Shown here piece by piece: positions 1 to 9,693 of a stretch of DNA of 37,052 nucleotides. Every line of letters starts with the position of its first letter. The stretch's first letter is position 1. The translations under genes and the position numbers were made by a program. Source of the DNA: an uncultured Clostridia bacterium (GTDB lineage: Bacteria > Bacillota > Clostridia > Oscillospirales > Oscillospiraceae); assembly GCA_947058885.1 (NCBI GenBank), contig CAMSIF010000012.1:1-37052 (forward strand). The letters are read 5' to 3'. The notes under the pieces were generated by a model that did not search any database, was not told the DNA's origin, and was given only the letters and a program-made list of their open reading frames with translations.

Positions 1-261
1 CAAGGCTGTGCGCTGGGAGGGCGTAGCTTTCGCCGTGCCAAGTATCGCCAGTTTAGATAGATCTCGCCTGAGTGAATGAGCGTCCAGCGCATACAGGTTT
101 AGAAACAAAGTGTTGATTACACCTTGTTCACGTTCTGCCTCCATTTTTCTAAATTCGGCCGCAACCGTCTGGATAGACGATGTGAAGTCGGCGTCTGGAT
201 CACGGCCGACCTCTTCTTTGAATTTTGACAGAAGCATTTCATGCTTACCCGGAATCAACGC
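1..261 (-). CDS. Hypothetical protein, 3' end cut by the window edge
   Basis: An open reading frame runs off the left edge with no stop. The first in-frame ATG is at 237, giving 79 visible residues. A strong SD (AAGGAGG) lies upstream, but the ATG is too far from it. The best-spaced in-frame codon after the SD is ATT near 261, and a TTG follows at about 255, so the start is uncertain and may be non-AUG. The visible protein is charged and helical (KFKEEVGRDPDADF, then EFRKMEAEREQG) with no motif I recognise. It sits about 40 nt downstream of the 86-aa gene on the same strand and probably shares its transcript. It belongs to the mobile-element segment. The reading frame is clear, but the function is unknown. 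Confidence 0.55.
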
Positions 262-298
262 AATGGGAAGCACCTCCTTTTCAAACTACCCCATCGGC

Positions 299-559
299 TT
301 ACCGCAATCCGAAGAACACCCTGAAGTATCGGGCTGCCAAATCTCCCTCGATGACAATTTGCTCGTCTGTGGAGACAGGAACGGCATCCGTCACGCCGTC
401 CAGATCAAGGCGTTCAAGGGCCGCTCTTGCGGCATCGACTGTGTCTACCGCTTGCAGGCATATCCACGACACCACCCGATGGCTCTTGAGATCACGCAGG
501 TGAGGTTGGCAAATGCAGACTTTCCCCGGATGCCCACGCCGCAAGTCTTGGAATCTCAC
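299..559 (-). CDS. Hypothetical 86-aa protein of the mobile element
   Basis: The frame stays open upstream, but the best start is the GTG at 559, because AGAGGAGG lies 7 nt before it. An overlapping ATG two bases upstream runs straight into TGA. The product is small and soluble, with no membrane segment. It has two N-terminal cysteines in a KVCICQPHL context and a W-x-C motif near residue 32, followed by an acidic helical middle (VDAARAALERLDLDGV). I do not recognise the family. A promoter at 695-723 precedes it, and a second unknown gene follows after about 40 nt. GGGGTAG heptamers flank the gene on both sides (287-293 and 658-664), so the same factor that reads the upstream repeat array could act here. 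That link is inference. Confidence 0.55.
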   Translation of the reverse strand: MRFQDLRRGHPGKVCICQPHLRDLKSHRVVSWICLQAVDTVDAARAALERLDLDGVTDAVPVSTDEQIVIEGDLAARYFRVFFGLR

Positions 560-694
560 ATACTCACCTCCTCTCCCAACAGAAGAATCAGGACTCATTT
601 CGGGGTCGCTTCGAGCGTTTTTGGGGCATTCGTAACAAGAAATGCGAAGCGCCGTTACTACCCCAAAACGCCCAGACAAACCCAGAGTGGTGGT

Positions 695-723
695 ATGTTA
701 GCTCTGGCTTTAACAGTTGTCAA
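695..723 (-). promoter_or_regulatory. Sigma-A type promoter of the two-gene unit at the left edge
   Basis: On the minus strand there is a perfect -35 TTGACA (718-723), a 17-nt spacer and a -10 TAACAT (695-700, 4 of 6 matches). The predicted transcript starts near 688 and leads to the GTG start at 559 through a ~130-nt leader that carries one GGGGTAG heptamer (658-664). Two more heptamers lie just upstream, at 769-775 and 799-805. Confidence 0.5.
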
Positions 724-830
724 GCAACTCATATGACCTTATTCAGAAATGTTTTAGGGGATAAATAACTACCCCGGAAATCACCGTTTTTTCGGAATCT
801 ACCCCTAATAACTAACATTTTTCCAAAATA

Positions 831-857
831 AAAGGCCATAGATTGTCTATGGCCTTT
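831..857. terminator. Perfect 12-bp hairpin, terminator-like
   Basis: AAAGGCCATAGA at 831-842 and its exact complement at 846-857 enclose a 3-nt loop. On the minus strand the stem is followed by a T-rich run (TATTTTGG). It could end transcription coming from the repeat array, or insulate the promoter at 695-723 from it. No gene that needs a terminator is apparent upstream, so the role is uncertain. Confidence 0.4.
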
Positions 858-948
858 GAAAGCTAAATGAAGCGGTTTATTCAGTTTTAACGGAGGGTAA
901 CTACCCCGATACTGGCGAGGGACAATCAACTACATCAAACAAGTGATA

Positions 949-1322
949 CTACCCCGCACAGAAAACAGCTACCCCACCAAGGGACCAATGCCGCCAACGG
1001 CGGAGAACTACCCCAAGCAAGAGGCCAACGCCGCCAGCTGCGGGAAACTACCCCATCGAGGGGCCAATGCCGCCAGCTGCGGGAAACTACCCCATCGAGG
1101 GGCCAATACCGCCAACGGCGGGAAACTACCCCAAGCAAGAGGCCAACGCCATCAGCAGCGGGAAACTACCCCACCAAGGGGCCAATGCCGCCAACGGCGG
1201 GAAACTACCCCAAGCAAGAGGCCAATGCCGCAAGCAGCGGGAAGCTACCCCAGGACTGGCAAATACCAATCAAATCATGGCAAAAACAGTCACCTCTACC
1301 CCGTACAGAAAACGGCTACCCC
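949..1322. repeat. 39/40-bp tandem repeat array built on CTACCCC
   Basis: The heptamer CTACCCC (GGGGTAG on the minus strand) starts at 969, 1008, 1048, 1087, 1126, 1166, 1205 and 1245, so the spacing alternates between 39 and 40 bp. A typical unit holds GGGAAACTACCCC, then a variable pentamer (AAGCA, ATCGA or ACCAA), then GRGGCCAAYGCC and a small dyad such as CCGCC-AAC-GGCGG. Both ends of the array carry the same paired motif, CTACCCCG-Y-ACAGAAAAC-R-GCTACCCC (949-975 and 1296-1322), where two heptamers are 20 bp apart. Isolated heptamers also occur at 287, 658, 769, 799, 901 and 1886. The mix of 39 and 40 bp breaks every reading frame, so the array is not coding. Iterons or a protein-binding array are the leading ideas, but neither is proven. 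Confidence 0.85.
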
Positions 1323-1447
1323 AGAGAAAGGAGACAGGCCAAATACATTCCACAGCTTTCTCATACGGCAATCTGCGCAAACAAAAACTCCCCCTGAGAC
1401 AGTCTCTCCACTATCCCCAAACGGGAAACAGGATGTACCACATACTC

Positions 1448-1633
1448 GACAGGACTCCCGGCTACGAACCGCCACGGCGGGGGACTCGGGGTGCTGTCTG
1501 CTATAGCCGGGTCGCTACGTCCTCTGCCAATGCGGTCAGTGGCTGACTGAGTAACAGCATCAGCACACCGCCAGTCTCCATTGCATATCTGACGGAACTC
1601 CCGTGTGTGTATCGCCACGGCGGGGGGACTCGG
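1448..1633. repeat. Pair of imperfect ~43-bp direct repeats with internal dyads
   Basis: Blocks 1448-1489 and 1591-1633 share the pattern GAC-R-G-R-ACTCCCG, a variable stretch, then CGCCACGGCGGGGGACTCGG. Each contains a small dyad, such as CCGCC-AC-GGCGG. The first block also starts an 8-bp perfect inverted repeat, CCCGGCTA (1457-1464) with TAGCCGGG (1504-1511). The stretch 1323-1866 otherwise holds no gene I can support. Structured non-coding DNA of this kind in a mobile element could be a transfer origin, a replication origin or a small RNA. The sequence alone does not decide between them. Confidence 0.6.
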
Positions 1634-1866
1634 TGACCTCTCGAAGACAATCAAAAGACAGCAAACTCAGGGGGAGGGTGTGGACTGTTTTGAGATGGGC
1701 GCAGGGGAGCTCTTTCTCAATTTGTAATCACTGTCGTCCTCGAAACATTTGTGTAATTTAGAATGAGATTAAATTGTTTGAGTCAGATATTAAGGAGGGT
1801 AATTGCTGGGGATTAATAGGAAAAGCCAATCCTGTCTATTACTATTTGTTATATAATGGCGGACTA

Positions 1867-2001
1867 TCAGCCTTGAGCACTTGCACTACCCCTGAGACAA
1901 ACACCCACACCATGCGTCAACATATCATCTTCTGCTCGGCACTTAATGAGCTGCTGACGCAGTTTAGCGACCTGTTTTTTTGGCAGTTTTAGCTTTGCCA
2001 T
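1867..2001 (-). CDS. Possible 44-aa small basic protein
   Basis: The start ATG at 2001 has AAAAGG 4 nt upstream, and the frame ends with TGA at 1867. The N-terminal half is basic and helical (MAKLKLPKKQVAKLRQQL), while the C-terminal half is low in structure. The frame is co-directional with the methyltransferase gene and lies about 100 nt downstream of it. I do not recognise the product. One GGGGTAG heptamer falls inside the frame, near its 3' end. With this length and SD it may be a small DNA-binding protein, a remnant of a longer gene, or chance. Confidence 0.3.
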   Translation of the reverse strand: MAKLKLPKKQVAKLRQQLIKCRAEDDMLTHGVGVCLRGSASAQG

Positions 2002-2099
2002 TTAACCTTTTTTACCTTAATGTCAATTGACAGCTCCGCAAAGGTCTCCAAAGTAGGCCACCATTTCCCAGCTTGCCAAAAGTGGAAAACGAGAGTGCC

Positions 2100-4055
2100 T
2101 CATACAGCAAGTCCGCCCATGTAATTTTTTGTGATATGTTCTTCCCTCCAAGTAATTGCCCGCTGCACGATTTCTTTATAGGCTTTGCCAGCGTCAGCGC
2201 ATTGTAAGAACAGCTTGAATGGAAGAACAACCGCAGTATCATGCAGCGGGATTGTTCGCAAGCAGTCAAAATTTACCACCAGCATCTCGATTGTTCTCGA
2301 ATAAATCTTTTGCTTCTTTCTCTTGGCGGCATCAGCATCGAATAATATTACAAACAGCTTTGAGGCAGTCCTTTTTGGAGCATCTGTTGGTATATATTTT
2401 TGGTCTCCATCCAACTGAAGCGGAGCATAGAACCCTCTATAATAGTTTCCATAATTTTCTATAATGTGTTTTTGTCCTTTGCGTGTTTTTTTGCCGGTAA
2501 GCCAATCCCTATCAGAGGGGTTATATTGCATAGAAAAAATCCATCTCCACTTTGCGCTCCGTAAGATGTCCAGCATTTCTTTGTGGTCTTTATCAGAAAA
2601 ACGCACGTTATAACCAGTCGTGAGGAAATATGGACTGTCCAAATAATAAACTCTATCAGAGGGGCCATTCGGTAATATGCTTCTGAAATCTTGGGAGTAG
2701 AATTTCGCATTTTGCAGATGTCCAGAGAAATCCCCGATATACTTCAAGTTGAGCGACGCTGGATGAAGCCGAAGCTTCGATAGTAACTTAGCCTTTTCCG
2801 CCCGATCCTGTCCATCTATGGCATCGAGGGTGATGCTTAATCTCTTTAAAAATGAATAATAATTGTCTTCATCTACGCAGGTCACATGAAAAACACTTTT
2901 CCCCCGCGGCTTGAATGAGTAATAATAAAACACGGCTAACGCATAATCGAGAATGTTATCAACCTGATTGTCGTTAACCTGATTATTATTCATATCCTTT
3001 AGGAAGGCACTGAAATCCATATTTTCCAAAGTAGTTCTGCAATGTTTCAAATATTCGTCAACAGCCACATACCAGCTACGTATTCTTATAATAAACTCCT
3101 TATGGCGTTGGGCCTTCTTCTTGGCCTTTGCAATGTAAGATTTTGAATACCCCAACTGAATCACAAAGTTATCCCAAATTTGGGGGTTTGTGAGCAGTTC
3201 TCTCTCCCAAAATTTTTTGGACTTGTCCCCCCAATACTCGTCTGGCTTTAGCCGCATAAGTGAGTCCATAAATCCATAATGATTTTCATACTCGCTCTCC
3301 GTATAGTTCAAATTAATGTGATTGAAATCCTCTGTCATCACACTATTTATAAATTGTGCGAGTCGGCTGCGAAGTTCTTTCTGGTAATAGGTGAATGCCC
3401 AGATAAAGCAGATCATGAGTGGATCTGCATCATTTACAACCGGGGCCGGGCACCCCTTTGGAACTTTTGATCCCCTTCCTACCATAGACGCAGCCACTGT
3501 TGCGGTGCCAGCAAACACATCAACAAACCGAGGTAGTTTTTTTAATGTCATAGATTGGATTTTAGATTTAGCCTTAGATTCGCTTGCTTGCCGACCAGCC
3601 TCGTAATACAGTTGTTTAACTGTGGAGACAATATATTTTTGCTTTACACCGTTGCGGAATAATTTTATAGCTGAATATGTATCAGCTTCCGCATACCTAC
3701 GAAATTGCGGGGAGATTTTCCACGTCCTGAAACGGGTTACTTGGAGACCAATCCGCTTCATAAAATCACTTCCGCTGAGCGTTCCCTTAACCATCAAATA
3801 AAAGCAGATCTTCTTGAAAAGCAGGGGAAGATGGGCGCGTCCATATGCAGCCTTCCACTGCCGAAGCCAGTCTACATCATTAAAAGCCTCCTGTTGAACA
3901 CAACAATGGAAGCCTGAAAACAAATCATGAAGCATGGATTGTGGCTGCTGATAATTCCCAGACAAAATATTATCTATGTATATTTTTTCCACTTGAAGAA
4001 ACTTTTCAAACGGCTCGTAGGAAAGAAGCTCGAGCATCAGTTCTCTCACAATCAT
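2100..4055 (-). CDS. D12-class DNA adenine-N6 methyltransferase with long extra domains
   Basis: This protein should transfer a methyl group from S-adenosylmethionine to adenine in a specific DNA sequence. From the ATG at 4055 (AAAGGTGG just before it) it is about 651 aa, against roughly 270-300 aa for a plain Dam-type enzyme. Motif I (FVDVFAGTATVAAS) is at about residues 177-190, a D12-style NDADPL segment follows at about 208, and the catalytic motif appears as DSPYF near residue 473, a DPPY variant. About 175 residues precede motif I. The spacing between motif I and the catalytic motif is about twice that of Dam, so a large, partly charged insertion replaces the usual target-recognition part. 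No restriction gene is visible next to it. It lies 106 bp downstream of the HEPN gene on the same strand and is AT-rich compared with the chromosome. Either GTG or TTG could also serve as start (TTG at 4082). Confidence 0.8.
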   Translation of the reverse strand: MIVRELMLELLSYEPFEKFLQVEKIYIDNILSGNYQQPQSMLHDLFSGFHCCVQQEAFNDVDWLRQWKAAYGRAHLPLLFKKICFYLMVKGTLSGSDFMKRIGLQVTRFRTWKISPQFRRYAEADTYSAIKLFRNGVKQKYIVSTVKQLYYEAGRQASESKAKSKIQSMTLKKLPRFVDVFAGTATVAASMVGRGSKVPKGCPAPVVNDADPLMICFIWAFTYYQKELRSRLAQFINSVMTEDFNHINLNYTESEYENHYGFMDSLMRLKPDEYWGDKSKKFWERELLTNPQIWDNFVIQLGYSKSYIAKAKKKAQRHKEFIIRIRSWYVAVDEYLKHCRTTLENMDFSAFLKDMNNNQVNDNQVDNILDYALAVFYYYSFKPRGKSVFHVTCVDEDNYYSFLKRLSITLDAIDGQDRAEKAKLLSKLRLHPASLNLKYIGDFSGHLQNAKFYSQDFRSILPNGPSDRVYYLDSPYFLTTGYNVRFSDKDHKEMLDILRSAKWRWIFSMQYNPSDRDWLTGKKTRKGQKHIIENYGNYYRGFYAPLQLDGDQKYIPTDAPKRTASKLFVILFDADAAKRKKQKIYSRTIEMLVVNFDCLRTIPLHDTAVVLPFKLFLQCADAGKAYKEIVQRAITWREEHITKNYMGGLAV

Positions 4056-4161
4056 CACCCACCTTTTCGACAAGTATATCAAAAAGCGGATGAAAAATCT
4101 ACTCCAAATTAACTTCCCTGAAGCAAGGCCCCCCTCAAAACCTTACCGCAATACGACTAAT

Positions 4162-4563
4162 TCAAAGGATCGATTGATCCCGCAAGTATTTTTCCACAGT
4201 GGCAATAAACAGGGATGCTTGGTCAAAGACATCGGAGGCTTCTTCCTGTGTCGCCTCATAGAAATCCTCATAATCTGCCTGTTCACGCAGTTCAGAGGCG
4301 TTTCGGATAATTTTTGAGACCTCTTTTTGAAATATCCCCGTCTTGACATATTCCTGATTAAAATGAGAAATGACTCCGCTGTGTTTGCTGCTGTCAAAGC
4401 CATCTAAGGCGTTAACAGCACGGATGGCATGAAAAATAGCGTAATAAGATCGGTTAATGGAGGAGCGGAAATTTGTGCTGTGCAGCAACAGCTCAGCAGT
4501 TGACAATTCCTCTTTTGCCCTCTTGAAGCGGTGCGCAGATAATACCGTCAGGCTGCCTGCCAT
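4162..4563 (-). CDS. HEPN domain protein, likely toxin partner of the MNT protein
   Basis: The 133-aa product has the features of the HEPN family (PF05168 type): a helical bundle with INRSYYAIFHAIRA near residues 37-50, followed by a SSKHSGVISHFNQEY segment and ADYEDF near 95. The R-x6-H arrangement in RSYYAIFH fits the family's Rx4-6H RNase motif. The known role of many such proteins is as an RNase toxin (HepT type) neutralised by an MNT nucleotidyltransferase. Its ATG at 4563 lies inside the 3' end of the MNT gene (16-nt overlap), so translation is probably coupled. The gene sits close to the element's attachment site, as expected for a maintenance or defence module. Toxicity is inferred from family and context, not seen. 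Confidence 0.8.
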   Translation of the reverse strand: MAGSLTVLSAHRFKRAKEELSTAELLLHSTNFRSSINRSYYAIFHAIRAVNALDGFDSSKHSGVISHFNQEYVKTGIFQKEVSKIIRNASELREQADYEDFYEATQEEASDVFDQASLFIATVEKYLRDQSIL

Positions 4564-4877
4564 AAAACAACACCGTCCTTTCGGATATTCTTATAAAATG
4601 GGAGAACATCCTTCCATTCTGTGAACTTTTCATAATCAATGCAGAGTACAGATAAAACTTTCCCACAGGCAAGCTCTAAATCAACGATTAAATCCAGCAT
4701 CTGGTCACGCATTTTTTTTGTGGCCCCAGAGTGCATCAGAATTGCCACATCAACATCTGAGTCATCCTGCCGTGTTCCACGGGCCGTTGAGCCATACAGA
4801 ATGATACTATCAATCAGGTCGCCATATATACTTTGCAACCCAGGGATCATCTGCTCCAATGCCAATTCGACCGTCAT
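4548..4877 (-). CDS. MNT-type nucleotidyltransferase, likely antitoxin (MntA-like)
   Basis: The protein is 109 aa from the ATG at 4877, which has AAGGTGG 5 nt upstream; the frame could be extended to a GTG at 4886. It carries the minimal nucleotidyltransferase signature GSTARGTRQDDSDVDVAIL near residues 30-48, with the GS-x2-RG and SD-x-D metal-binding pattern intact. In MNT-HEPN pairs, the family enzyme can silence its HEPN partner by transferring AMP groups to it. Here it is the first gene, and its stop codon lies 16 nt inside the HEPN frame. A promoter is recognisable just upstream (4914-4942). It acts in the cytoplasm. Function as an antitoxin is inferred from the pairing; a housekeeping role cannot be excluded. 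Confidence 0.8.
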   Translation of the reverse strand: MTVELALEQMIPGLQSIYGDLIDSIILYGSTARGTRQDDSDVDVAILMHSGATKKMRDQMLDLIVDLELACGKVLSVLCIDYEKFTEWKDVLPFYKNIRKDGVVLWQAA

Positions 4878-4913
4878 ATTACCCACCTTCTTCCAAAGCT
4901 GATGCTTACTTCG

Positions 4914-4942
4914 ATTATAGTATAAATTGTCTCATTTGAAAA
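4914..4942 (-). promoter_or_regulatory. Promoter of the MNT-HEPN pair
   Basis: On the minus strand a perfect -10 TATAAT lies at 4914-4919, 17 nt from a weak -35 TTTTCA (4937-4942). Transcription would start near 4907, giving a leader of about 30 nt before the ATG at 4877. Confidence 0.45.
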
Positions 4943-5025
4943 GAGAAATCATAGAAATCCTATATTATTATAACCGATTTTAATGCAAAAATCAACCGAG
5001 GCTTTTGTAAAAATGCAAGGACCTT

Positions 5026-5089
5026 GCTGCTGGTCAGTGTTGACTAACTGGCAGCTTGCCTACAAATCTGCCTACAAACTGCCCAACAT
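5026..5089. repeat. Dyad and 12-bp-spaced direct repeats next to the att site
   Basis: An imperfect inverted repeat (GCTGCTGGTCAGT at 5026-5038 with ACTAACTGGCAGC at 5043-5055) is followed by TGCCTACAAA twice (5057-5066 and 5069-5078) and a degenerate third copy starting at 5080. Short direct repeats at this distance inside an element end are typical of arm-type binding sites for tyrosine integrases. The integrase itself is not in the window, so this is inference. Confidence 0.4.
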
Positions 5090-5215
5090 CGGCTAAAACC
5101 GGACAATACGAAAAGCAATCTTTTAGCAATTAAAACCCAGCTACCCCTAGGGACAGAGGAGATTTCCGGGTATCATCAGGAGTCCCCCAAACCACTCAAA
5201 AGCCGATACGTCGTA

Positions 5216-5260
5216 CTCCTAAGCGAAAGGCCATGCGTTCGAATCGCATCGGGGGTGCCA
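5216..5260 (+). other. att site: 3' half of tRNA-Arg(CCU) at the element end
   Basis: From 5216 the sequence matches the second half of a tRNA. It shows anticodon loop CTCCTAA (anticodon CCU), stem strand GCGAA, variable loop AGGCC, T-arm ATGCG-TTCGAAT-CGCAT, acceptor strand CGGGGGT, discriminator G and an encoded CCA ending at 5260. Upstream of 5216 nothing pairs. An intact gene would need TTCGC before the anticodon loop and RCCCCCG at its 5' end, but neither is present, apart from an isolated CCCCC run near 5184. The simplest reading is that an element integrated at the anticodon loop, leaving this 3' fragment at its right end, with the tRNA 5' half at the other end beyond the window. Confidence 0.75.
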
Positions 5261-6906: not shown

Positions 6907-7914
6907 TCAGGCCTCTATCGTTACTGCGTGGCAAATCCCAGGTACGCTCTCCCCCTGGAAACTGCTCGTCGGTGACAGCAGCGCACCCGTCGGCGCGAAA
7001 AGCAGCTTCTTCCACCGTCCCTCCGCCATTTCCCGCAGCAAATACCCGCACAGCACCGACGCCGAACACCCGCACCCGCTGGCCCCCGCGTGCATGTCCT
7101 GCTTCTCAATGTCGTAGAGCAGCATCCCACAGTCCAGATAGTTCTCCCCCATCTCCACGCCATCCTGAGCAAAAAGGTCTATCACAATCTGATGCCCCAG
7201 CACACCCAAATCCCCGGTCAGCACCAAGTCATAGTCCTTCGGTCCGGTACCCGTGGCCGCAAAGTGGGCCGCGAGGCTGTCGTAAGCCGCCGGCGCCATC
7301 GCCGCCCCCATATTGTTCGCGTCGGTAACGCCCTTATCCACAATCTTCCCACAGGTGACAGTAGTAACCCTCGGCCCCTTCCCCTCCGCCCCGAGAATCA
7401 CGCACCCAGACGCCGTGGCTGTCCACTGTGCCGTAGGAGTCCGCTGATTCCCATACGGCACAGGCATCCGGTACTGCCTCTCCGCAGTACAGAAGTGACT
7501 GCTGGTCATTGCCCCCGCCCGCTCCGCGAAGCCCCCCGCAATCAGCAGCGACCCCAGCGCCAGAGACTCCCCCATCGTGGAGCAGGCCCCGTACAGGCCG
7601 TAGAAGGGGATGCCAAAATCCCGCAGGCCAAAAGATGTTCCAATACATTGGTTCAGCAAATCTCCCGCCAGGATATAGTCCAAATCCTCCGGTGACAAGG
7701 TAGCTTTCTCCAGGGCCTTGCTGAGAGCCATCTTCTGCATGGCGCTCTCTCCCTTTTCCCACGTCTTCTCCCCGAAAAAGCTGTCGTCGCTCAAATGGTC
7801 AAAGTACGCGGCCAGAGGCCCTTCCCCCTCCTGCTTCCCGCCTACGGCGGCGTGAGAGAGGATGACGCTGGGCCGTTCCAGGGCGACGGTCTGCCGCCCC
7901 AATCGTTTCTGCAT
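6907..7914 (-). CDS. spoVAD: Stage V sporulation protein AD (SpoVAD)
   Basis: The 335-aa protein has the length and thiolase-like fold pattern of SpoVAD, the dipicolinic-acid-binding peripheral subunit of the SpoVA channel in the spore inner membrane. Visible family features are LGRQTVALERPSVI at the N-terminus, the GLYGACSTMGESLALG segment near residue 115, SSHFCTAERQYRMPVPYGNQ near 150, and the HAGASGCGCSA stretch near 280. The start is ATG 7914 with GGAGG 9 nt upstream; the frame extends 17 codons further without support. spoVAC, which usually precedes it, is absent here: the gene upstream is the divergent hutH. spoVAE follows after the 54-bp palindromic element. Confidence 0.92.
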   Translation of the reverse strand: MQKRLGRQTVALERPSVILSHAAVGGKQEGEGPLAAYFDHLSDDSFFGEKTWEKGESAMQKMALSKALEKATLSPEDLDYILAGDLLNQCIGTSFGLRDFGIPFYGLYGACSTMGESLALGSLLIAGGFAERAGAMTSSHFCTAERQYRMPVPYGNQRTPTAQWTATASGCVILGAEGKGPRVTTVTCGKIVDKGVTDANNMGAAMAPAAYDSLAAHFAATGTGPKDYDLVLTGDLGVLGHQIVIDLFAQDGVEMGENYLDCGMLLYDIEKQDMHAGASGCGCSASVLCGYLLREMAEGRWKKLLFAPTGALLSPTSSFQGESVPGICHAVTIEA

Positions 7915-8086
7915 GGTCTCTCGCCTCCAAAAAAACCAAATCCGGGATATTTCCCGTGCTGTCACCCAGTATGCGCAATTTTAACAAGAATATCCCACCG
8001 CCGCCGGATAAAGCTGTTCACTTCTTATACATTAATTCATTACTTGACTAAATTGTTATATATTTTTTGTTTTTCAGCGAAAATTA

Positions 8087-8114
8087 TTGACAAATCATCG
8101 ACGAATTATATAAT
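8087..8114 (+). promoter_or_regulatory. Promoter of the hut operon
   Basis: A perfect -35 TTGACA (8087-8092) and a perfect -10 TATAAT (8109-8114) are separated by 16 nt. The predicted start is near 8121, about 50 nt before the hutH ATG. A second, weaker TTGACT lies upstream at 8044. The AT-rich 255-bp divergent region must also hold the spoVAD promoter, which I could not assign. Confidence 0.75.
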
Positions 8115-8121
8115 GACAATA

Positions 8122-8144
8122 TACCATTTTGCACATACATGGTA
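8122..8144. promoter_or_regulatory. Candidate operator over the hut transcription start
   Basis: TACCAT (8122-8127) and ATGGTA (8139-8144) form a perfect inverted repeat with an 11-nt gap, at about +1 to +24 of the predicted hut transcript. This is a suitable place for a repressor to block the operon until histidine or urocanate appears. No regulator gene is next to the operon, so the protein that reads the site is unknown. Confidence 0.4.
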
Positions 8145-8169
8145 CACCAAAAATTATGGGGGATACGAT

Positions 8170-9693
8170 ATGATTGCAATTGACGGAAAGAGCCTTACCT
8201 TGGAACAGGTCATCGCCGCCGCCCGGAGCGGCGAGCTCGTGGAACTGACACAGGAATCCAGAGAGGCTATCAATAAAACCCGCGCCTATGTAGACAAAAA
8301 GCTGGCGGAAAAGGCGGTGGTCTACGGTCTCACCACCGGCTTCGGAAAATTCTCCGATACCTTTGTCCCCGAGGACCAGACTGCCGCCCTCCAGCGGAAT
8401 CTGATTATCAGCCATTCCTGTGCCATGGGCCAGCCCCTCCCCACAGAAGTGGTCCGCGCCGCCATGCTGCTGCGCTGCAACGCCTTGGCCCGGGGGAACT
8501 CCGGCATCCGCCTGAGCACTATCGAGACCATGCTGAATATGCTCAACAAAGGCGTTCATCCCATTGTTCCGGAGAAGGGTTCCCTTGGCGCCAGCGGCGA
8601 CCTGGCTCCCCTGGCCCATCTGGTGCTGGTGATGCTGGGCGAGGGCGAAGCTGAATACCAGGGCCGGCGTATGCCGGGCAGAGAGGCCATGGAGACCGCC
8701 GGAATCCCAACAATTGAGTTGGCGGCCAAGGAGGGCCTTGCCCTCATCAACGGTACCCAGATTATGACAGCCATCGCCTGCAACGTTCTCTGGGATGCCT
8801 TCCATCTGTCCAAGACGGCGGACATTGCCGCCGCCATGACCTGCGAGGCCCAGCTGGGCATCAAAAAGGCCTTTGACCACAAGGTCCACGCCGCCCGGGG
8901 CCACAGAGGCCAGCAGGAGTGCGCGAAAAACCTGCTGCAAATTCTGGAGGACAGCAAGCTGGCTATGGAGCTGAACCCCGACAAGGTCCAGGACGCCTAC
9001 TCCATTCGCTGCGTGCCCCAGATTCACGGCGCCAGCCGGGACGCCATTGAGTACGTCCGCGGAGTGCTCTCCAACGAGATTAACGCCGTCACCGACAATC
9101 CCATCATTTTCCCCGACGAGGACGAGGCCATTTCCGGCGGCAACTTCCACGGCCAGCCGGTAGCCCTGGCGATGGACTTTTTGGGTATCGCTCTGGCGGA
9201 GTTCGCCAACGTGTCCGAGCGGCGCATTGAACGCCTGGTGAACCCCTCCCTCTCCAACGGCCTGCCCGCCTTTTTGACCAAGCACGGCGGCGTCCATTCC
9301 GGATTTATGATTGCCCAGTACTCCGCCGCCTCCATGGTGAGCGAGAGCAAGGTCTACGCCCACCCCGCCTCTGTGGATTCCATCCCCTCCTCCGCCGGGC
9401 AGGAGGACCACGTGAGCATGGGTACTACCGCCGCCCGCAAGGCCCGCATGATTTTGGACAACAGCCGGAAAGTACTCGCCATTGAGCTCTTTGCCGCCGC
9501 CCAGGCCCTCTGGCTCCGGGGCGAGGACCAGCTCTCGCCCGCTACCAGGGCGGTCTACGACCGTATCCGCCAGGACGTGCCTCCCATCGACGAGGATGTC
9601 GTGATGCATCCGCTGATGGTCCGCTGTGAGGAAATGATTGCGGCGGGTGAAATTGTGAAGGCCGCTGAGAGCGTCTGTGGAGAACTGCGCTAA
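8170..9693 (+). CDS. hutH: Histidine ammonia-lyase
   Basis: This enzyme removes ammonia from L-histidine to give urocanate, the first step of histidine degradation. From the ATG at 8170 it is 507 aa, the normal size. The self-forming MIO cofactor triad Ala-Ser-Gly is at residues 141-143, inside GSLGASGDLAPLAHL. Other conserved parts are VYGLTTGFGKF near residue 51 and TDNPIIF with GGNFHGQP in the second half. The frame is open further upstream, but GGGGGATACGAT before this ATG and the promoter position favour it. It is the first gene of a five-gene operon in catabolic order, with 28 nt to hutU. The long frame antisense to it is a composition shadow. Confidence 0.97.
   Translation: MIAIDGKSLTLEQVIAAARSGELVELTQESREAINKTRAYVDKKLAEKAVVYGLTTGFGKFSDTFVPEDQTAALQRNLIISHSCAMGQPLPTEVVRAAMLLRCNALARGNSGIRLSTIETMLNMLNKGVHPIVPEKGSLGASGDLAPLAHLVLVMLGEGEAEYQGRRMPGREAMETAGIPTIELAAKEGLALINGTQIMTAIACNVLWDAFHLSKTADIAAAMTCEAQLGIKKAFDHKVHAARGHRGQQECAKNLLQILEDSKLAMELNPDKVQDAYSIRCVPQIHGASRDAIEYVRGVLSNEINAVTDNPIIFPDEDEAISGGNFHGQPVALAMDFLGIALAEFANVSERRIERLVNPSLSNGLPAFLTKHGGVHSGFMIAQYSAASMVSESKVYAHPASVDSIPSSAGQEDHVSMGTTAARKARMILDNSRKVLAIELFAAAQALWLRGEDQLSPATRAVYDRIRQDVPPIDEDVVMHPLMVRCEEMIAAGEIVKAAESVCGELR

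Follow-up and report, generated by a model that had tools for sequence, protein, structure and literature searches.

The window, a stretch of 37,052 nucleotides from an uncultured Clostridia bacterium of the Oscillospiraceae, is the entire contig C12 of a fragmented genome, and its start falls within a gene. This gene, B (1–273, minus strand), is truncated at the contig end, and its homologues in two related genomes, G654 and G473, are 134 aa long. Gene A of the same operon (299–559, minus strand) encodes 86 aa, and its homologues are 98% (G654) and 67% (G473) identical. Before gene A there is a promoter-like site, TTGACA-17-TAACAT (695–723, minus strand). The scan found one such site vs. 1.3 expected by shuffles, and the argument for this site is conservation, with both hexamers identical in the window, G654 and the G473 locus L025. 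Farther from gene A lies a repeat array, which is GC-rich (62–65% GC) and adjoins an AT-rich stretch (700–900, 35–39% GC in 100-bp windows). After the array in its reading sense, there is a terminator-like hairpin with a T-rich tail (831–857, minus strand), which is also found in G654; in L025 the stem is changed and there is one mismatch. The region 560–2100 contained five terminator-like sites vs. 2.2 expected, and the scan found no promoter-like site upstream of the array.

On the other side of the array is a conserved non-coding block with CCGAGTCCCCCGCCGTGGCGG (1423–1551, minus strand), which is 98% identical in G654. A partial second copy is found at 1584–1626, and the block folds no better than shuffles. 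The gene next to the array (2100–4082, minus strand) encodes 660 aa and matches a D12-type adenine methyltransferase; its homologue in G473 (L006 6028–7994) is listed as two ORFs. It is followed by a gene pair encoding HEPN and nucleotidyltransferase (MNT-type) proteins (4162–4886), a toxin-antitoxin-like module within the element. The presumed right end of the element is the 3′ half of a tRNA gene (5216–5260, plus strand), read by eye from its anticodon loop (CTCCTAA), T arm, and CCA. ARAGORN found no complete tRNA in the window. A pfkB-like gene lies beyond the tRNA-like sequence.

The heptamer CTACCCC, which is GGGGTAG on the minus strand, occurs 16 times at 286–1322, and GGGGTAG is absent from the plus strand there. 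The earlier note had counted the same 16 heptamers in one orientation, and 15 of its starts agree with ours, while the first is 286 rather than 287. Eight of them form the phased array (969–1251, minus strand) with starts at 969, 1008, 1048, 1087, 1126, 1166, 1205, and 1245. The spacings are 39, 40, 39, 39, 40, 39, and 40 bp, so the regular alternation of 39 and 40 described earlier is not strict, and Tandem Repeats Finder reported periods of 39, 79, and 118 in the phased region. The whole window contains 22 heptamer matches on both strands vs. 5.55 on average (sd 2.43) among 100 dinucleotide shuffles, and no shuffle reached 22. Two more sites on the same strand had been missed, one between the array region and the methyltransferase gene (1886–1892) and one close to where the element presumably ends on the right (5141–5147). 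Thus, with the array included, the element side of the window (1–5215) has 18 GGGGTAG on one strand and none on the other. The region 286–1322 had been called non-coding. This is right only in part, since it contains gene A, and the site at 286 lies between genes A and B. A DNA search of the same genome found this array locus only once.

In 20 array units, 6 of the 7 heptamer columns and 20 of the 32 spacer columns were at least 90% conserved. The heptamer is therefore not clearly distinct inside the array, and the view that a constant heptamer is separated by degenerating spacers is not supported. In the array units, the sequence CCGCC-GTT-GGCGG or a variant of it comes after GTAG. Compared with shuffles, the array folds only slightly better (z −2.15; 1 of 100 shuffles as good), and the hairpins of the units showed no covariation beyond shuffles, 374 of 500 of which paired at least as well. 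No Rfam family reached the gathering score in the window. A CRISPR array was rejected because the entire 39/40-bp unit repeats and there are no unique spacers.

The earlier note placed the array in a mobile element and suggested a search of related elements for phased arrays that precede homologues of the 86-aa gene. The placement in a mobile element is supported. We carried out the search, and both G654 and G473 have such arrays. The same kind of array precedes the same genes A–E, and thus operon and array are conserved in three elements, whose carriers belong to one family and three genera. The window is 95% identical to G654 over the array, leader, and gene A, and 68% identical to G473 in the DNA search. 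Protein D has a GmrSD_N (DUF262) domain and protein E a DUF3846 domain, while A, B, and C have no match in Pfam or NCBIfam. Gene E is a single 404-aa ORF in G473 and two ORFs in G654 (L034 7741–8924). The locus is complete on one 245-kb contig in G654. A search of genome contigs with the methyltransferase-like protein found two loci, L005 and L006, and L006 terminates within a 39-bp array of the same kind. The gene A search led to G473 contig C2, which starts inside an array of this kind, followed by genes A, B, C, D, and E, and the DNA search found an array match at the extreme end of G473 contig C8, which we take as the contig of L006. Thus, the array breaks the G473 assembly.

The ends of the G654 and G473 elements are the N- and C-halves of SigK, and a large serine recombinase gene is next to the C-half. 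The halves cover positions 10–117 and 109–213 of TIGR02846 in G654 and 5–122 and 102–224 in G473; as fragments they score below the whole-protein cut-off. Since these two elements lie between sigK halves, they are skin-type (sigK-intervening) elements. Such elements occur in B. subtilis and C. difficile (PMC5025042), and ours are similar to them in position and in the recombinase by the C-half but differ in gene content, the array, and the polar motif described below. L005 has the same SigK C-half and a homologous recombinase, and its contig ends 186 bp past the methyltransferase, before any array could show. Unlike the skin elements, the window element has no sigK beside its visible right end, where the tRNA-like 3′ half and the pfkB-like gene are found; its left side is off the contig. 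Therefore, the module of array and operon is present at two or more kinds of integration site. Another contig of the same genome (C71, L088 767–2781) has a different large serine recombinase beside a sigK-N-like stretch, and thus the sigK of this genome is probably interrupted by a different element. A proline-rich coding repeat was seen in a protein of a different locus (L077 17219–17594), where a sigK N-half and a related recombinase are close by.

The module is rare in the genomes searched. Gene A was found in 2 of 200 genomes of the family, own genome included, and in the genus of G654 in 1 of 10, which is G654 itself. The DNA from array to gene A matched 5 of 400 genomes, 3 of which we counted as genuine, own genome included; G593 had a 28-bp match in this search. 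Across the order, the only genome of 394 with the array-to-A DNA was the own genome, and the methyltransferase gave the same result in a sample of the same size (1 of 394). There was no match to the methyltransferase in viral contigs, phages, and plasmids, to window positions 600–2100 in plasmids and phages, to genes A and D in viral contigs, to gene C in plasmids and phages, or to the leader sequence in viral contigs. Gene D had only partial matches of less than 60% identity in plasmids and phages (12 and 6 records), many of them annotated as DUF262. A pair-pattern search matched 8 of 25 genomes, with seven places in the own genome and one place in each of the 7 others; these single places were set aside as unrelated (L007 was inspected). 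We also set aside a viral contig with one pattern match and no array (L022), four viral contigs that match the conserved block over 18 nt but no further, and two G007 contigs whose repeats look coding and lack GGGGTAG by eye.

The heptamer is not confined to the array. Without the array, the array-sense strand of the G654 element (18.1 kb) has 18 GGGGTAG and the opposite strand has 1, while 0.86 and 0.51 are expected from dinucleotides. The G473 element (20.2 kb) has 19 and 2, while 1.07 and 0.53 are expected. The array-sense enrichment outside the array is thus roughly 20-fold in the two complete elements, and GGGGTAG is the most over-represented heptamer in both. Poisson P is about 5e-18 (G654) and 2e-17 (G473), and the strand binomials are 4e-5 and 1e-4; these values are uncorrected for word choice. 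The word came from the array, and the elements, being homologous, are not independent. The one-strand enrichment across two whole elements, array excluded, supports the proposal of the earlier note that the heptamer is a meaningful unit. With the array again excluded, GGGGTA is the top hexamer in both elements, 28:4 in G654 and 36:2 in G473; of 64 sites, 37 continue with G and 17 with T. None of the one-letter variants counted (9 of 18) is comparable, and their counts do not exceed 11 on one strand and 6 on the other. Under a maximal-order Markov model, whose 5-mers already contain the motif, GGGGTA occurs 28 times vs. 21.3 and 36 times vs. 23.9. In L005 the hexamer is 4:0 in 6.7 kb, and in the window element outside 961–1330 it is 9:0. 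The site, a GGGGTA core usually with G or T next, runs along a family of integrative elements.

In 1-kb bins, GGGGTA is densest in the array and the A–E part. Some presumed cargo genes, namely those for DUF927, SLH, and ATPase proteins in G654 and the two methyltransferase ORFs in G473, are without any GGGGTA, while genes found only in G473 have it, among them L025 5557–7146 (four) and 7291–9285 (two). Between G654 and G473, 13 of 21 aligned GGGGTA sites outside the array are kept, whereas local conservation would predict 6.79 (P 0.0036). For GGGTAG, 11 of 13 sites are kept vs. 4.51 expected, which ranks it first among 18 hexamers with at least 10 aligned sites. In the G654 element (L034, L035), GAGAAGGG, which we take to be the B. 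subtilis SpoIIIE recognition sequence, occurs five times on the array-sense strand and not on the other, while 0.43 is expected.

To compare with the chromosomes, we counted GGGGTAG on both strands of 200 kb of each chromosome and found 19 (G654) and 18 (G473) vs. 32.5 and 35.1 expected. Chi and KOPS/SRS are polar chromosomal motifs. Since the chromosome samples show no enrichment, GGGGTAG is unlikely to be the Chi or KOPS/SRS site of the host. Among 20 loci around recombinases of 40–55% identity, several of them short or including chromosome, none resembles the two elements; the largest excess is in an unrelated locus (L071) with six GGGGTAG vs. 2.15 expected on one strand and one on the other. 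Among nine comparison elements or loci, the strong polar k-mers of G522 come from a local coding repeat, and the others are weaker.

We also carried out synonymous shuffling with proteins and codon use held fixed (1000 shuffles). In genes read along the array sense, GGGGTAG occurs 5 times vs. 0.85 in G654 and 8 times vs. 0.95 in G473. In genes read in the opposite direction, the array-sense strand still has 4 vs. 0.26 (reached by 0 of 1000 shuffles) and 4 vs. 0.42 (1 of 1000), and for GGGGTA the numbers are 5 vs. 1.05 (3 of 1000) and 7 vs. 1.89 (0 of 1000). The opposite strand has 1 vs. 0.41, 0 vs. 0.01, 1 vs. 0.53, and 1 vs. 0.12 GGGGTAG under the same shuffling. This null fits 245 chromosomal ORFs, with GGGGTAG at 15 vs. 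13.1 and CTACCCC at 19 vs. 25.1 (12 shuffles). The enrichment in genes read both ways favours a strand preference that is a property of the DNA strand, but not conclusively: the sites in opposed genes are few, GGGGTAG reaches only rank 5 and rank 7 among the heptamers there, and several sites are common to both elements and within conserved protein motifs. Because the enrichment outside the array is polar, is found also in opposed genes, and is not seen in the chromosome samples, the array is the densest cluster, or peak, of an element-wide, strand-polar signal. The array described in the earlier note thus exists, but the signal to which it belongs is element-wide and polar rather than local.

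We tentatively favour the reading that the GGGGTA sites serve replication-type machinery of the element itself, although we give it less than an even chance. A direction-sensitive, element-specific DNA machine would read GGGGTA, and this machine would be the element's own replication apparatus. The array and the adjacent AT-rich stretch would be the origin or loading site, and the scattered copies would be used, for example for priming or re-loading, as replication runs one way round the excised circle. One orientation over an excisable element, the absent chromosome signal, the sharp core, and the dense array by a stretch of 35% GC fit a directional process of the element. Furthermore, in G654 a gene just upstream of the array encodes a protein with a DUF927 match (3.6e-15) and a match to Cch HTH_56 (1.5e-4; 22.2 bits, below the cut-off of 26.2). 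In SaPIs, the short repeats that the Rep helicase recognises lie just downstream of the helicase gene, and in SCCmec the direct repeats bound by Cch2 are likewise downstream of the gene for Cch2 (PMC7581432). The layout in G654 is similar to these, which favours the origin or loading reading, and an origin at the array is possible on the basis of the DUF927/Cch-type gene in this one element. The main weakness of the replication reading is that the helicase-type gene adjoins the array only in G654, while the same slot has the methyltransferase gene in the window and G473, and no helicase or primase was found by Pfam among the G473 ORFs scanned. The 39/40-bp spacing also counts against it, as it is unlike the short iterons described in PMC7581432. 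The smaller excess of GGGGTA under the maximal-order Markov model, the rank of GGGGTAG in opposed genes, and the excess at L071 weigh against it as well. Not every unit requires the exact word, since the ten phased units of G654 have GGGGTAG in 3, GGGATAG in 6, and GGGGTAA in 1, while GGGATAG is not enriched outside the array (0 vs. 1.07 and 0 vs. 1.29).

Other explanations place the function elsewhere. Protein binding to DNA without replication is rather unlikely in our view. The array would be the binding cluster of an element regulator, a silencer, or a partition protein, and a helix-turn-helix product or the DUF262 protein D would load on it and reach the scattered sites. The elements do encode helix-turn-helix proteins, the array is beside the promoter-like site of A–E, and GGGGTA is densest in these parts. 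However, a plain double-stranded site needs no single orientation over 18 kb, and the 39/40-bp spacing does not keep one helix face. CsrB-type sponge RNAs titrate an RNA-binding protein, and by analogy the array might be transcribed on the minus strand as a non-coding RNA that ends at the hairpin at 831–857, with GGGGUAG titrating a protein that also binds the leader and the A–E junctions. The terminator-like hairpin right after the array in the window, G654, and L025 and the separate promoter-like site of gene A with conserved hexamers agree with such control, as do the copies of the motif that G654 and G473 have in the A leader and at both ends of gene B, the copy at its start lying immediately ahead of GGAGGTG. 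However, the strand preference persists in genes read in the opposite direction. The failure of the scan to find a promoter-like site upstream of the array, the lack of covariation in its hairpins, and the small gain of its fold over shuffles also count against RNA control, which we likewise consider rather unlikely. The terminator-like hairpin is conserved in place, however, and so the sequence may leave a role for RNA.

Somewhat less probable is that only the scattered polar motif is functional and that the array is a minisatellite grown by slippage from a motif-bearing unit. The number of units varies, units are locally homogenised, GGGATAG units have been amplified in G654, there is a higher-order 118-bp period, and the conservation of the heptamer columns barely exceeds that of the spacers. 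On the other hand, three elements have the array at one position and in one orientation, including an element that has diverged to 68% identity, and further heptamers cluster just outside the phased part. The array may have grown partly by slippage. The single orientation is also reminiscent of phage T7, which has 36 EcoP15 sites, all in one orientation, and is not restricted (PMC3874151). The GGGGTAG sites are asymmetric and likewise in one orientation, and both the window and G473 have a methyltransferase-like gene close to the array; still, escape from a type III-like enzyme that needs two opposed sites accounts for the orientation and not for the roughly 20-fold excess of sites, and we think it very improbable. 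The least probable explanation is a family of GTAG-type REP repeats, in which a RAYT transposase spreads a GTAG foot followed by a palindrome. REP families that end in GTAG and form tandem groups have been described (PMC3733652), and the units have GTAG and then CCGCC-GTT-GGCGG or variants. However, the DNA search found one locus only in the own genome and no dispersed palindromic copies, most scattered sites have no palindrome after them by eye, and the enriched core is GGGGTA, not GTAG.

The reading in terms of the element's own replication can be compared with several known systems. Similar to SaPI origins and proposed SCC origins, G654 has a DUF927/Cch-type gene just upstream of an array of direct repeats, an AT-rich neighbour, and a large serine recombinase, and multiple short direct repeats are a feature that the array shares with an iteron origin of the SaPI/SCC type. 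Unlike these origins, the units here are 39/40 bp, the motif runs along the whole element on one strand, and there is no helicase gene by the array in the window and G473 and no primase among the ORFs scanned. The start consensus of the SCC primase is reported to have a vague homology with the origin repeat (PMC7581432). The T7 primase recognises 5′-(G/T)2GTC-3′, a short, G-rich, asymmetric site on one template strand (PMC12839067), and GGGGTA shares these features with the site as described there, but no primase gene was found among the ORFs scanned here. AIMS are short asymmetric words that keep one orientation over a long distance (PMC5993296). GGGGTA is similar to polar chromosomal motifs such as AIMS, Chi, and KOPS/SRS in being short, asymmetric, and in one orientation over distance, but it is private to the element, has no orientation switch inside it, and forms a dense array, and the chromosome samples are not enriched. 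In a partial literature collection, none of the papers listed for the word GGGGTAG deals with a motif of this kind in mobile elements, as judged by titles and the starts of abstracts.

Taken as a whole, our tentative proposal, for which we claim less than even probability, is that a family of integrative elements in Oscillibacter-related bacteria carries a private strand-polar code, GGGGTA(G/T), on one strand along the whole excisable element and concentrated in a phased array. The code would be read by an element-specific directional machine, that is, by one-way replication with its own priming or loading sites, and the module would have moved between sites (sigK with a serine recombinase, and a tRNA-like end). 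Polar short motifs are known from chromosomes and phage priming, and a motif private to an element and without enrichment in the host chromosome, if true, would point to undescribed directional machinery of integrative elements. The polarity of GGGGTA would then be a handle for finding its reader protein and a signature for recognising these elements in fragmented assemblies, whose contigs can break at the array, as in G473.
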